Assembly (NCBI GenBank): GCA_016208915.1
Contig: JACQXE010000052.1
Span: 23,268 to 87,267, forward strand
Reading direction: 5' to 3'
DNA from: Nitrospirota bacterium
GTDB taxonomy: Bacteria > Nitrospirota > Thermodesulfovibrionia > Thermodesulfovibrionales > UBA1546
DNA length: 64,000 bases
The first letter of the stretch is position 1. Each line of letters starts with the position of its first letter. Positions 3,773-62,546 of this stretch are shown here, piece after piece. The notes beneath the pieces were generated by a model, which was given only the letters and a program-made list of their open reading frames with translations, searched no databases and was not told the origin of the DNA. The translations under genes and the position numbers were made by a program.

Positions 3773-3797
3773 ATGTAGCCACAGGCTTTAGCCTGCG
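3773..3797 (+). repeat. REP-like 25-nt repeat, left of RAYT
   Basis: ATGTAGCCACAGGCTTTAGCCTGCG. Confidence 0.85.
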
Positions 3798-3805
3798 AGG
3801 ATAAT

Positions 3806-4300
3806 GTGAGGATAAAAGAAAAAAGGCATAGATTATCCAAAGAATTTTATAAAGGAGAAGTATCTGTCGCTTTCACATTATGTGTGAAACGGGATGTAAT
3901 CGCAGGCTTTAGCCTGCGTGAACCTGAAATTGTAAGCACGTTCACTAATATTCTTTCGTCGGTTGTTGTTGAAGCAAAGTGTATTGTTCCAGTTTATTGT
4001 TTCATGTCTGATCATCAACATATAATAATCGCAGGAACATGTAGTGATTCTGACATATGGGAAGCAATAACAAAATACAAACAAAAGACTGGTTTCTGGT
4101 TGTCTTCAAATAAATCTGGTGGTAAGTGGCAGAAGGATTTTTATGATCATGTAATAAGAAAGCATGAAGATATGACAGCCCAGATAATGTACATACTTGA
4201 TAACCCGGTAAGAAAAGGATTGGTGTTATCATGGCAGGAATATCCATACAAAGGTGCTATCGGATGCAAAATAGAAGATGTTTTAAATGGGATCATCTGA
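3806..4300 (+). mobile_element. REP-associated tyrosine transposase (RAYT, Y1/IS200-like family)
   Basis: HxH motif in CFMSDHQHIII, catalytic-type Tyr in KDFYDHVIR, flanking inverted REPs. Confidence 0.85.
3894..3918 (+). repeat. REP-like 25-nt repeat inside the RAYT coding sequence
   Basis: ATGTAATCGCAGGCTTTAGCCTGCG, encodes DVIAGFSLR. Confidence 0.85.
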
Positions 4301-4305
4301 ACAAT

Positions 4306-4330
4306 CGCAGGCTAAAGCCTGCGGCTACAT
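4306..4330 (-). repeat. REP-like 25-nt repeat, right of RAYT, inverted
   Basis: reverse complement ATGTAGCCGCAGGCTTTAGCCTGCG. Confidence 0.85.
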
Positions 4331-4346
4331 CTATGGAGATATTGAA

Positions 4347-5393
4347 ATGCTCACAGAAATAATCAGAATGTTCAAAGAGGAAGATGGTTTTGTATCCGGT
4401 GAGGAGATGAGCAGGAGGCTCGGCATCACAAGGGCTGCGATATGGAAAAAGATAGAGGCATTGAGGAATAAAGGATTCAGGATCGAAGGCTCTCCTGCAA
4501 AGGGGTACAGGCTGGTGAGGTCTCCGGAATTTTCAGTTGATGAACTCAGGACATTAATCCCCCCTCGCCCCCCTTTGGGAAAGGGGGGATGGGGGGATTT
4601 CATAGGCAGGGAGATTATCTTTCATGAGAGGACTGATTCTACAAATGTAATGGCTATGAAGCTTGCGGAAAATGGCGCAGGTAACGGAACGGTTGTTATC
4701 GCTGACAGCCAGTCAAAAGGAAAAGGACGGCTCGGCAGAACATGGACCTCGCCTTCAGGCATGAATGTATATATGAGCATTATTCTTAGGCCTGAGATAG
4801 AACCTAAGGATGCAACCCTGCTTACTATCATGTCTGCCGTTGCCTGTGCGAGAGCCATCAGAAATATCTCAGGGCTCCATGTTGGAATAAAATGGCCTAA
4901 TGACCTGATGGCGTCTGACAAAAAGATCGGCGGGATACTGACAGAGATGAAATCAGACCCTGACAGAATAATCTTTGCTGTTATAGGCATAGGCATTAAT
5001 GTGAATATGAACCAGAAGGATTTTCCGTCTGAGATAAAGCCTATCGCTACATCAATCAGAGAAGAACTCAATAATCCCCCCTCACCCCCCTTTGGTAAAG
5101 GGGGGATGGGGGGATTTGGAAAAGGTGAAATCTCACGCACACATATAATTGCCGGGATATTGAATGAGATGGACAGATGGTACGGGATTCTGAGAAAAAA
5201 GGGAAAGACGCCTCTGCTTGATGAATGGAGAGAATTCTCGTCAACTCTCGGAAGGAAGGTAAGGGTTTCAGCAGGCAGCCAGACATTCACAGGCATTGCA
5301 GAGGACATAGATGATGAGGGTATGCTTTTAGTGAGGCTTTCTTCAGGAGGATTAAAAAAAATCAGTGCAGGAGATGTGATGTTATTAAGGTGA
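4347..5393 (+). CDS. birA: Biotin operon repressor / biotin-[acetyl-CoA-carboxylase] ligase
   Basis: N-terminal HTH (MSRRLGITRAAIWKKIEAL), DSTNVMAMKLAENGA, SKGKGRLGRTWTSPSGMNVYMSIILRP, KWPNDLM, GIGINVN; the longer ORF from 4287 reads through the REP so 4347 preferred. Confidence 0.92.
   Translation: MLTEIIRMFKEEDGFVSGEEMSRRLGITRAAIWKKIEALRNKGFRIEGSPAKGYRLVRSPEFSVDELRTLIPPRPPLGKGGWGDFIGREIIFHERTDSTNVMAMKLAENGAGNGTVVIADSQSKGKGRLGRTWTSPSGMNVYMSIILRPEIEPKDATLLTIMSAVACARAIRNISGLHVGIKWPNDLMASDKKIGGILTEMKSDPDRIIFAVIGIGINVNMNQKDFPSEIKPIATSIREELNNPPSPPFGKGGMGGFGKGEISRTHIIAGILNEMDRWYGILRKKGKTPLLDEWREFSSTLGRKVRVSAGSQTFTGIAEDIDDEGMLLVRLSSGGLKKISAGDVMLLR
4556..4600. repeat. C/G-run palindromic repeat inside birA (copy 1)
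   Basis: aatcccccctcgcccccctttgggaaaggggggatggggggattt, reads IPPRPPLGKGGWGDF. Confidence 0.9.
5073..5117. repeat. C/G-run palindromic repeat inside birA (copy 2)
   Basis: aatcccccctcacccccctttggtaaaggggggatggggggattt, reads NPPSPPFGKGGMGGF. Confidence 0.9.
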
Positions 5394-5419: not shown

Positions 5420-5555
5420 AATAAGAACAGGGTATTGTACTCTCGCTCATTCTCGGCCTTACGGCCTCCGAGGTTTTTGCCTCTTGATTATTTATATTCC
5501 TACTGTCGGAATATCAGCAAAAAAAGCCGCTCAAATACAATACCCTGTTCTTATT
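5420..5555 (+). repeat. Repeat element with conserved core and private perfect inverted arms, copy A
   Basis: 20-bp perfect arms aataagaacagggtattgta (5420-5439)/tacaataccctgttcttatt (5536-5555); core 5444-5532 shared with copy B. Confidence 0.85.
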
Positions 5556-28406: not shown

Positions 28407-28478
28407 AGCCGGGGAGGAGAGTCGAACTCCCGACCAGCTGATTACGAATCAGCTGCTCTACCACTGAGCTACCCCGGC
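28407..28478 (-). tRNA. tRNA-Thr(CGT)
   Basis: Cloverleaf GCCGGGGTAGCTCAGTGGTAGAGCAGCTGATTCGTAATCAGCTGGTCGGGAGTTCGACTCTCCTCCCCGGC, anticodon CGT. Confidence 0.93.
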
Positions 28479-28500: not shown

Positions 28501-28634
28501 AAAGATGGAAGATATAGTGTTAGAGCGGCTTATTTTGCCGATATTCAGACAGTAAGACATAAAAATATCAAGAGGTAAAATCCTCGGAGGCCGCAAGGCC
28601 GAGAATGAGCGAAAATACTATATCTTCCATCTTT
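28501..28634 (-). repeat. Repeat element with conserved core and private perfect inverted arms, copy B
   Basis: 18-bp perfect arms aaagatggaagatatagt (28501-28518)/actatatcttccatcttt (28617-28634); core 28523-28611 on minus strand, 76/89 match to copy A by hand. Confidence 0.85.
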
Positions 28635-28636
28635 TT

Positions 28637-29608
28637 CTATCTTTTATTATATTCCATCATTGCCTCTTTTTCAGGCGCATCAGGACATCCCCTGTATTTC
28701 GGAGAGAAGTGCATGACAACAAGATTTTTCACGCTCGCCTCCTTTGCAATCATTCCTGCTGTTTTTGCAGTGAGATGATGCCTGTCCAATGCCCTTTCCT
28801 TGTCTTCTTCAAGAAAATATGCCTCACAGTAAAGCGTGTCAGAATCCCTGATGAGTGCAATGATTTTTTCAATGTTGTCTTTATCCATTGAGGAGTCAGC
28901 AATATACGATATCTTCTGCCCCTCTGTTATATTTGCAATGCCTCTGAGTTCTTTCATTGTATATGTCTTATCCATGATTTTGAAAATTCTGCTTTCATCA
29001 TGTGATTCTCTTATTGCCTTTTTAAATTCTGAAAGCCATGGGCCTACCGGAAGCCCCATCCTGTTGAGAGCTGCCTTATCAATATTTATATGAAAGTTTT
29101 CTTTGAGAGAAAAACCGAGGCATGGTATCTGATGGATAAGAGAGACTGACCTGACCTCAAAATATGATTCCTTAAGTACAGCGCCGTCAAATGGCATGTC
29201 TTCATGATCTATCCTGTTAAAGCAATTTTCAGCATAAAAACCTGAATGCCTGATAAGATTCCCATCTGTTTCAAATGCCTCAATCCTGAGGGGATACTCT
29301 TTTATAAGATTCCATGTGTATCCTGCGAGCTTTCCCTCAATGCCTTTTATTATATTCACAGGCCCGAATATCCTTAATGGGATATCTCTTCTCAAAAGCG
29401 CCCTTAGTAATACATCAAATCCTATGAAGTGGTCTATGTGTGTATGGGTCACAAAGACATCTGTTATCTTCTGGAGACCGCTTGGATCGAGCCTATTTAT
29501 ATCACCGAGATCAAAAAGTAGCGCCCTTTTTTCTCTCAGTATTCTGATGTAAAGACATGGGTCTTCAAAAGGACTGTTTATAAGCCTGTGGTGAAAAATT
29601 GGTTTCAT
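28637..29608 (-). CDS. Ribonuclease Z-like metallo-beta-lactamase family protein
   Basis: FVTHTHIDHFIGFDVLLRALLRRD, YIADSSMDKDN, CEAYFLEEDKERALDRHHLTAKTAG, VVMHFSPKY. Confidence 0.88.
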   Translation of the reverse strand: MKPIFHHRLINSPFEDPCLYIRILREKRALLFDLGDINRLDPSGLQKITDVFVTHTHIDHFIGFDVLLRALLRRDIPLRIFGPVNIIKGIEGKLAGYTWNLIKEYPLRIEAFETDGNLIRHSGFYAENCFNRIDHEDMPFDGAVLKESYFEVRSVSLIHQIPCLGFSLKENFHINIDKAALNRMGLPVGPWLSEFKKAIRESHDESRIFKIMDKTYTMKELRGIANITEGQKISYIADSSMDKDNIEKIIALIRDSDTLYCEAYFLEEDKERALDRHHLTAKTAGMIAKEASVKNLVVMHFSPKYRGCPDAPEKEAMMEYNKR

Positions 29609-61041: not shown

Positions 61042-61066
61042 CCTACCTTATGAAAATATAGGGCGG

Positions 61067-61087
61067 TTTCTTTTACGGTGTTATCCC
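61067..61087 (+). repeat. Cassette terminator repeat R1 (degenerate)
   Basis: tttcttttacggtgttatccc. Confidence 0.6.
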
Positions 61088-61154
61088 TTGTTCTATCCTA
61101 GCAAGTATACAAAGATTATACAGTGCTTTGTAAAGACACAGGACAGGGTTTTTA

Positions 61155-61191
61155 TTGACAAGCATTTTGATATTGGTTTAAAATACCAATA
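61155..61191 (+). promoter_or_regulatory. Promoter with overlapping palindromic operator
   Basis: TTGACA-N18-TAAAAT and palindrome TATTGGTttaaaatACCAATA (61171-61191). Confidence 0.6.
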
Positions 61192-61238
61192 GGTGAAGGC
61201 CGTATTAATTAAGCATAGAAGAGCTGTAGAGGTGAGCT

Positions 61239-61610
61239 ATGAGAGTTAAGAAAATCAAAGTAGGCATAAAGGATTTAAAGACCATTCTTGACGATTTTGT
61301 TAAAACAGGTGAAGCTGTCAAGCGAGGAGAAAAATTCAAGCCTGTTAAAGAGCCTGAAATCTACTTTACAAGTTTTGAGGCTTTGAGGAAGGCATTAACA
61401 CCAAAAAGGCTTGAACTCTTGCATATCATCAAGACAAAAAAACCTTTTTCTATCAACGAGCTTGCAAGAGTAGCAAAAAGGGATGTTAAGAATATAGCTG
61501 AAGATGTCAAATACTTAGAGCAAATCGGCTTGATTGAAAAGAAAGAGACTGATAACAGGATAACTCCGATCATAAATTATGACAGAATAGCATTGGAGAT
61601 AGCAGTGTAA
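61239..61610 (+). CDS. MarR-like HTH regulator/antitoxin without visible toxin partner
   Basis: LTPKRLELLHIIKTKKPFSINELARVAKRDVKNIAEDVKYLEQIGLIEKKE wHTH. Confidence 0.75.
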   Translation: MRVKKIKVGIKDLKTILDDFVKTGEAVKRGEKFKPVKEPEIYFTSFEALRKALTPKRLELLHIIKTKKPFSINELARVAKRDVKNIAEDVKYLEQIGLIEKKETDNRITPIINYDRIALEIAV

Positions 61611-61620
61611 CAGTTTTCAC

Positions 61621-61656
61621 GGGGATAGCATCTTTTACGGTGTTATCCTTTTTTTT
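61621..61656 (+). terminator. Cassette terminator repeat R2
   Basis: gggatagcatcttttacggtgttatcctttttttt: stem-loop plus T run. Confidence 0.7.
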
Positions 61657-61717
61657 CTTTATTGATTACCTTTGACTATTTTATTGACTTTACATCAAAT
61701 TGGTTGTATCATAAATC

Positions 61718-62068
61718 ATGACATTTTACGTTAACTACTGGCGTAATCCATCGGGAAAAGCACCTGTTGAAAAATACATTGATGAGATAGCAAACAAGGA
61801 AGAAAGAGCAGAACTGCTCTCTGCCTTGAAAGGAATACAAGAATATGGCACAGATGCCATAGGTGTTGAGTTCAGACAGATAGAAGGCAAACTATGGGAA
61901 TTAAAGATAAGAGCGCATGGCAAACATCACAGGATATTTTATGTTGTGTTTAAAGGCAATGAGATGATTCTTCTTCATGCCTATTTGAAAAAGACGCCTA
62001 AAGCACCTGTAAGAGAGATTGAGACAACTAAACAAAGAATGAAACAATTAATGGAGGTTAAACAATGA
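61718..62068 (+). CDS. higB: HigB/RelE-type toxin (phage-derived Gp49-like)
   Basis: YVNYWRNPSGKAPVEKYIDEI...LWELKIRAHGKHHRIFYVVFKGNEMILLHAYLKKTPKAP. Confidence 0.88.
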   Translation: MTFYVNYWRNPSGKAPVEKYIDEIANKEERAELLSALKGIQEYGTDAIGVEFRQIEGKLWELKIRAHGKHHRIFYVVFKGNEMILLHAYLKKTPKAPVREIETTKQRMKQLMEVKQ

Positions 62069-62349
62069 AAAGCGACCTTGATAAGCACATTGAGAAACAC
62101 TTGAAAGACAAGGAGTTCAGGATTTACTTTGACAAGGCAGAGGCCAAAAGGAAAATAGCTCAGGAGATTGCGCTTTTAAGAAAAGCGCATAATATCACGC
62201 AGGCACAGTTGGCTAAAGAGATTAAGACAAGCCAGCAGGCAATCTCAAGGCTTGAAAGCCCTATTGACAAGCGTATGCCCTCTCTTGAATTTCTTGACAG
62301 GATTGCAAAGGTGTTCAATCGGAGGCTTGTAATCTCTTTGCAGAGGTAA
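62065..62349 (+). CDS. higA: HigA-type XRE antitoxin
   Basis: IAQEIALLRKAHNITQAQLAKEIKTSQQAISRLES; overlaps toxin gene by 4 nt. Confidence 0.9.
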   Translation: MKSDLDKHIEKHLKDKEFRIYFDKAEAKRKIAQEIALLRKAHNITQAQLAKEIKTSQQAISRLESPIDKRMPSLEFLDRIAKVFNRRLVISLQR

Positions 62350-62372
62350 ATAACCGGTTTCATGGATAGGGC

Positions 62373-62407
62373 GGGATAGCATCTTTTACGGTGTTATCCC
62401 TTTTTTT
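62373..62407 (+). terminator. Cassette terminator repeat R3
   Basis: gggatagcatcttttacggtgttatccctttttttc. Confidence 0.75.
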
Positions 62408-62546
62408 CGTATCTACCTCTCAAATTACGATTGATTGACAATTTTTAAAGAAGAATGTATAAAGGGGTGGAGGGATAAGGCAGTTTCTTACAAGAGTTCC
62501 TAATTCATGCTTATAACGTAATGCACAAATAAAAGGGGAGACTTCT

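Follow-up and report, generated by a model that had tools for sequence, protein, structure and literature searches.

A family of intergenic hairpin repeats in Thermodesulfovibrionales with a conserved core and paired arms of nearly free sequence, best read as a miniature mobile element

Introduction

Correia/NEMIS and ERIC elements are 100 to 160 nt long. In integron attC sites and in the a1/a2 arms of retrons, the structure of one strand outweighs its sequence and the ends are complementary, in an anatomy unlike that of the element described here. Correia/NEMIS and ERIC are presented in PMC2229807 as imperfect palindromes between genes, with fixed terminal repeats (24 bp and 7 bp, respectively), terminal TA, target duplications, and a possible stem-loop RNA, and the present element shares their palindromic form, intergenic position, and capacity for such an RNA. 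REPINs, which are doublets of REP sequences, resemble it further as they are portrayed in PMC3116915: they are short, noncoding, high-copy-number intergenic hairpins with compensatory changes, mobility through a single strand has been proposed for them, and part of their hairpin is set by length and pairing rather than by sequence. The recognition of REP sequences by TnpA-REP depends on GTAG-like tags, according to the account in PMC8266576.

The window analyzed here is a 64,000-nt stretch of a Nitrospirota contig. A sequence-only reading of it had drawn attention to a repeat, copy B, next to the stop codon of an rnz-like gene, and to a related copy A. Our analysis favors, with somewhat more confidence than doubt, a noncoding, nonautonomous mobile element about 130 nt in length, amplified via a folded single strand, the one that reads GAGCGG.

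The element and its copies in the window

Rederiving the coordinates and arms of copy B and the position of the rnz-like stop bore out the reported placement: the minus-strand gene stops at 28637, and 2 nt separate its stop codon from the outermost base of the arm (Table 1). The neighboring protein matches the NCBIfam ribonuclease Z model (E value of 3.8e-105). The ends of copy B, AAAGATGGAAGATATAGT...ACTATATCTTCCATCTTT, form a stem of 21 bp if one G.U pair is counted, enclosing a core of about 90 nt, and its folding energy has a z score of −7.8 on the plus strand and −6.6 on the minus strand, with none of 200 shuffles folding as well on either strand. Copies A and B are exactly the two covariance model matches in the window. 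They share the core on opposite strands, as had been reported, with 83% identity over 110 nt without gaps and 86% by BLAST.

Table 1. Features of copies A and B and the neighboring genes, in window coordinates
Feature	Position	Strand	Remarks
Copy B, whole element	28501..28634	+ (GAGCGG strand)	Covariance model, 135.5 bits; BLAST
Copy B left arm, 21 nt	28501..28521	+	Pairs with 28614-28634; one G.U at 28519/28616
Copy B conserved core, GAGCGG...GAGCGA	28523..28612	+	
Copy B core helix 2	28533..28580	+	TTTTGCC 28533-28539 with GGTAAAA 28574-28580; variable loop between
Copy B core hairpin 3	28583..28603	+	CTCG...CGAG, variable palindromic tip
Copy B right arm, 21 nt	28614..28634	+	
Copy A	5420..5555	- (GAGCGG strand)	Covariance model, 143.7 bits
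Copy A arms, 20 bp, perfect	5420-5439 and 5536-5555		
RNase Z gene	28637..29608	-	Stop 2 nt from copy B
tRNA-Thr(CGT) gene	28407..28478	-	Other side of copy B

Read from its ends inward, the element begins with the stem, which is about 20 bp long, followed by GAGCGG and GAGCGA, a direct repeat that bounds the core. Within the core lie helix 2, in which TTTTGCC and GGCAAAA enclose a variable loop, and hairpin 3, whose CTCG/CGAG stem carries a palindromic tip that varies; GGAG is seen before hairpin 3. The arms were surveyed in 154 copies from three genomes (13 of the 167 copies tried were dropped). The mean stem length is 19.9 bp (5 to 95% range, 17 to 23; 146 copies with a scored stem), and an arm pairs with its own partner at a score of 16.7, versus 7.5 when partners are swapped between copies, which is far above the level that a common consensus would give and upholds the arm model of the earlier reading. 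The arms had also been described as private to each copy, and 147 of the 154 18-nt left arms are indeed distinct; there is nevertheless a weak common consensus, AAGGCAGGATATAGTATTT, of about 16 bits over 20 nt. At the outer arm positions, each of the four Watson-Crick pairs is found, and position 14, for example, holds C-G in 87 copies, G-C in 29, A-T in 13, and T-A in 5 (145 copies counted; 9 of the 154 were out of register and dropped). At locus L256 (6053-6095, around 6077), an arm palindrome is found from which the core is gone save for one GAGCG, the loss lying between GAGCG direct repeats.

Other repeats were seen in the window. The birA open reading frame (ORF) (4287-5393) carries in-frame CCCCC...GGGGG palindromic repeats at 4552-4600 and 5069-5117, encoding PPRPPLGKGG and PPSPPFGKGG, and repeats of the same kind are found in the loops of certain element copies. 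A 36-nt repeat occurs three times at 61060-62408, with TTTTACGGTGTTATCC common to the copies.

Distribution among genomes

In the genome of the window, 113 matches (E value of ≤0.01) were obtained from 150 scored candidates out of 1,972 first-look candidates with a covariance model built from 38 copies of the same genome (2 of 40 were left out of the alignment for long insertions), and at least 40 matches were obtained by BLAST with copy B. The loci of 100 of the 113 matches were retrieved. One element match, at L146:505, is absent from the later tables. A BLAST search with copy B was positive in 24 of 41 Nitrospirota (Thermodesulfovibrionales) genomes, comprising all 16 genomes of the family and 8 of the 25 others in the order. 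In a related genus (g5), four species contain 111, 90, 52, and 19 model matches (E value of ≤1e-6). A pattern scan of GTDB genomes yielded at least 92 stretches, and among the 80 listed, 75 carry Nitrospirota-type titles (Nitrospirae, Nitrospira, Nitrospiraceae, or Thermodesulfovibrionales). The remaining five (one Winogradskyella, one Bacteroidetes, two Nitrospinota, and one Methylophilaceae) may be chance matches or misbinned contigs. Two contigs with Nitrospinota titles that carry the element pattern (L107 and L140) align over part of their length with Nitrospirota loci at 84 to 87%, and it is possible that they are misbinned. Searches of phages, plasmids, and viral contigs gave no match, and neither did the Rfam 15 covariance models for five loci, even at an E value of 5. 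A description of the family was not recognized in open-license PMC papers. A tRNA gene lies within about 200 nt of 6 of the 100 loci of the own genome, which is an uncontrolled count.

Pairing of the folded strand

In one alignment (A1), the two sides of a pair have both changed, with pairing retained, in 149 cells, compared with 40 in shuffles and at most 27 in slides. Such doubly changed pairs make up 19 of 32, every one of them in the arm stem, and change in the core helices is one-sided or absent; covariation thus proves the outer stem, and for the core helices the evidence is conservation and energy. For helix 2, the counts of mismatches disagree: loose pattern matching gave 29 G.U and 24 A.C, versus 21 G.U and 2 unpaired cells at the C-G pair in the alignment, and it is the alignment count that was relied on.

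Selection on one single strand should tolerate G.U and not A.C, and the two were therefore counted on the GAGCGG strand in 195 copies, with 12 orthologous ones left out and the gene context given for 133 of the 195. G.U exceeds A.C by 192 to 23 cells at positions 0 to 5 and by 148 to 28 cells at positions 6 to 17, where 100 copies have G.U and 17 have A.C, and the background beyond the arms (positions 22 to 29) is reversed (G.U, 100; A.C, 187). The excess is found irrespective of the transcription of the neighbors. Where both neighboring genes transcribe the other strand, it amounts to 49 versus 0 copies (positions 0 to 17) and to 45 versus 6 cells at positions 6 to 17; it is 20 versus 1 in the opposite tandem arrangement, 20 versus 0 in divergent copies, and weaker in convergent copies (18 versus 3, with 9 versus 4 at positions 6 to 17). 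The copies of the element share ancestry, and the P values of these counts overstate their independence. An mRNA read through from neighbors on the other strand would show A.C, and the fold is therefore selected on something other than read-through mRNA: the folded GAGCGG strand is selected either as a mobility intermediate or as the element's own transcript.

The latter possibility corresponds to structured RNAs that form a family, have a promoter of their own on the GAGCGG strand, act in trans or as antisense RNAs, and are kept by host selection. Strand-specific pairing and covariation are what structured RNA shows, the GAGCGG strand is mostly antisense to its neighbors, and many sites persist between genera. 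This reading is nonetheless unlikely in view of the roughly 110 copies per genome, the presence, absence, and replacement of copies between close species, the slight constraint on resident copies, and the failure of five loci to match Rfam even at an E value of 5.

In the favored mobile-element reading, the folded GAGCGG strand would be the intermediate of mobility, with single-stranded DNA likelier than RNA. An enzyme acting in trans would recognize the conserved two-hairpin core closed by the terminal stem, which would have to be about 20 bp long and paired and whose sequence would be nearly free. Copies with a paired stem would seed new copies, and resident copies would drift after insertion.

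Inheritance of cores and arms

In the own genome, core identity and arm identity are uncorrelated (r = −0.04 for pairs of similar core length among 92 copies, 8 of 100 having been dropped). Some pairs are similar in both, such as L307 and L311 (arms equal at 36 of 40 positions; core, 0.945), and the arms have a subfamily structure (pair variance of 29.6 versus 12.9). In genome G004, two copies that lie 1.3 kb apart in inverted orientation have identical or nearly identical cores, and their arms agree no better than those of unrelated copies do, at 22 of 40 positions (10 of 167 rows were dropped from this comparison). One member of this pair is at L163:3950, and no other copy in G004 has a core closer than 91%. 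The histories of cores and arms are thus largely, though not wholly, unlinked, and gene conversion of cores or remaking of the arms at transposition would each have this effect. A stricter version, in which the core alone is heritable and each jump makes fresh self-complementary arms of 20 bp, free in sequence and fixed in length, was considered because the G004 twins combine near-identical cores with arms equal at 22 of 40 positions and because the arms of one twin are missing from the empty site of two relatives; we regard it as doubtful, if somewhat conceivable.

The lack of correlation between cores and arms in the own genome and the inverted G004 twins also favor hairpin-templated copying (quasi-palindrome correction by template switching) that keeps the arms complementary, combined with ectopic gene conversion that homogenizes the cores and with no selection of a folded strand, as do loops swapped under constant arms at some shared sites and two compensated double changes that arose in a short time (see below). 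The strong excess of G.U on one strand is, however, unexpected from copying of double strands, and between close species, far more pairs have been broken than compensated, so that this explanation appears rather improbable.

Occupied and empty sites

The genomes G004 and G011 are congeneric and syntenic, and the flanks of their elements are 77 to 99%, mostly 90 to 98%, identical. Among 43 anchored comparisons, there were 18 distinct common sites and 8 elements that have no counterpart or face a remnant. At 4 of the 18 common sites, the two genomes hold different elements in opposite orientations and with different arms, which simple insertion leaves unexplained. At three others, the arms are equal at 35 to 40 of 40 positions and the loop has been replaced; in two cases, the G004 copy now has a palindromic, C/G-rich repeat there. 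At one flipped site (L192:3919-4079 versus L181:16264-16396), an old arm directly adjoins the arm of the new element, and its inner bases are nearer those of the opposite orientation, which hints at flipping followed by replacement.

The fate of resident copies was followed at 12 sites with the same orientation (of the 18, 4 flips and 2 sites with unlike arms were left out). Between G004 and G011, 210 of 252 stem pairs are unchanged. Changes on one side of a Watson-Crick pair led to G.U 7 times, to A.C 7 times, and to another mismatch 13 times, and in 2 pairs both sides changed with pairing kept. Changes in either direction amount to 13 G.U versus 8 A.C in this small sample. Of the 42 changed pairs, a single hybrid element accounts for 10 and a one-base register shift for 6. 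Resident copies thus lack the strong pairing filter seen across the family, which fits selection acting when the element propagates.

Among the sites without an element, E1, E3, and E5 have no arm, E2 has an arm-like remnant, and E4 resembles a deletion within a palindrome. The clearest case is site 2, which is occupied at L163:3950 in G004, where some 47 extra nt are present in addition; G011 and G005 have the same short empty site there, with neither arm nor palindrome. The other site of the 1.3-kb pair (site 1) is empty in G011 and G002 and holds an element of the opposite orientation in G005. At several absent sites, sequence beyond the arms is missing as well, so deletion is possible there.

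Across genera, 14 of 40 own-genome sites have syntenic flanks in the available part of G004, and 7 of them have an element nearby. Occupation at the same place was found at 6 of the 14, with 2 flipped, compared with 2 of 13 and 0 of 2 in controls. The cores at these common sites are no more similar than random pairs. Such recurrent occupancy may reflect hot spots, the nesting of elements within older ones, or persistence over long times; site reoccupation seemingly above the level of random insertion, in small numbers, counts against the mobile-element reading, as do the 4 differently occupied common sites.

These sites also bear on the proposal that the core enters preexisting palindromes or duplicates its target in inverted form, the arms being derived from the target. 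Near-identical cores with differing arms, the one coreless arm palindrome (L256:6077), and the arm-like remnants at E2 and E4 agree with it. The arms have a subfamily structure, though, E1, E3, and E5 are armless, a single coreless palindrome with arms of this type was found in about 3.0 Mb scanned (overlapping loci), and the empty site 2 in G011 and G005 shows neither arm nor palindrome. The proposal is quite improbable, and with the polarized empty site 2 armless and coreless palindromes nearly absent, it was rejected as the main reading.

Neighboring genes

The element is spread between genes. Of the 154 copies (orthologous sites counted twice), 74 have both neighbors read against the GAGCGG strand, 25 have both read with it, 23 are convergent, 23 are divergent, 9 are undetermined, and none is inside a gene. 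Among the 92 parsed copies of the own genome, 18 are convergent, 14 are divergent, 11 are undetermined, and a crude ORF caller placed one inside an open frame. Between codirected genes, the GAGCGG strand is antisense in 62 cases versus 16 in G004 and G011 together (some sites counted twice) and, more weakly, in 31 versus 18 in the own genome (P = 0.085). The equal orientation of the cores in the sense of birA and RNase Z, noted earlier, is correct and is part of this general bias. As causes of the bias, the directions of replication and of genes are inseparable here, with a skew-coding correlation of 0.84, and 20 convergent or divergent copies gave 0.6. Right-hand 3' gene ends are near the element (median, 9.5 nt) and 5' ends are farther (24 to 34 nt), as avoidance of ribosome-binding sites would give. 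The expectation that all copies lie downstream of stop codons in one orientation failed, as copies occur in every gene arrangement and in both orientations. The suggested role as a 3' untranslated region, terminator, or mRNA stability element of the upstream gene, in keeping with the near 3' ends and the biased orientation, is very improbable, given the 23 of 154 divergent copies with no 3' end beside them, the 25 in the opposite tandem orientation, pairing selected on a strand that is missing from the neighbors' mRNA in the commonest arrangement, and the lack of a consistent T run after the stem in 30 copies inspected by eye.

Search for a mobility enzyme

Matches to Y1 transposases number 10 in G000, 3 in G004, 2 in G011, and 2 in G005, and these genes, examined at 17 loci with about 1.5 kb on either side, are not flanked by the element. 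Among the 16 loci beyond the window, an element is present only at L277, some 1.1 kb away from the transposase gene, and copy A is about 1.3 kb from the weak match in the window (L278). This last match is a 164-amino-acid ORF at 3806-4300 on the plus strand (E value of 5e-4, below the Pfam cutoff), flanked by GCAGGCTTTAGCCTGC palindromes at 3773 and 3894 and, inverted, at 4305; it has the look of a degraded RAYT/REP locus that belongs to a different repeat.

No element-encoded enzyme or autonomous parent was found, nor was a split element containing a gene, in about 2.6 Mb. Sixteen distant half-pairs with matching arms were considered as autonomous parents. Six of them were inspected and turned out to be independent elements or remnants, five consisting of two complete elements and one (L090) of a left half and a complete element. 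No transposase was noticed between these six when their ORFs were read by eye. Direct repeats flanking the 154 copies are in no excess over swapped partners, and one site has TTATTT on both sides. The mobility proposed in the earlier reading is favored, even though neither an enzyme nor an excess of target duplications was found to accompany it.

If the mobile-element reading is true, this is a large bacterial repeat family selected for the pairing and length of its terminal stem and not for its sequence, with that selection acting on one defined strand independently of transcription. It offers a testable case of structure-guided single-strand mobility in a poorly studied phylum. It is also a warning that strong covariation in intergenic repeats is not proof of a functional host RNA.

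Relation to described repeat families

The element is short, noncoding, dispersed, and present in high copy numbers, as miniature inverted-repeat transposable elements (MITEs) are. A classical MITE was rejected on the grounds that the arms are variable, that no parent transposon with matching fixed terminal repeats was found, and that target duplications are in no excess. Compared with Correia/NEMIS and ERIC as presented in PMC2229807, its arms vary, and an excess of duplications is lacking. REPINs have invariant ends and a free spacer in the account of PMC3116915, whereas the present element has a conserved core and free ends; REPINs are linked with RAYT genes, whereas no linked RAYT gene was found here. 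Membership in the REPIN/RAYT system was rejected, with no Y1 gene flanked by the element and with variable ends in place of conserved ones that have a GTAG-like tetranucleotide beside a short palindrome. The element is set apart from REPINs and classical MITEs because the tested features that define them are not all present. A dispersed hairpin repeat is ordinary in itself; what is unusual is a stem whose length is nearly fixed, whose sequence is free, and whose pairing is maintained on one strand whatever the direction of transcription. The best reading is of a hairpin miniature mobile element with a REPIN-like logic whose conservation is turned inside out, and which is neither a REPIN nor a classical MITE.
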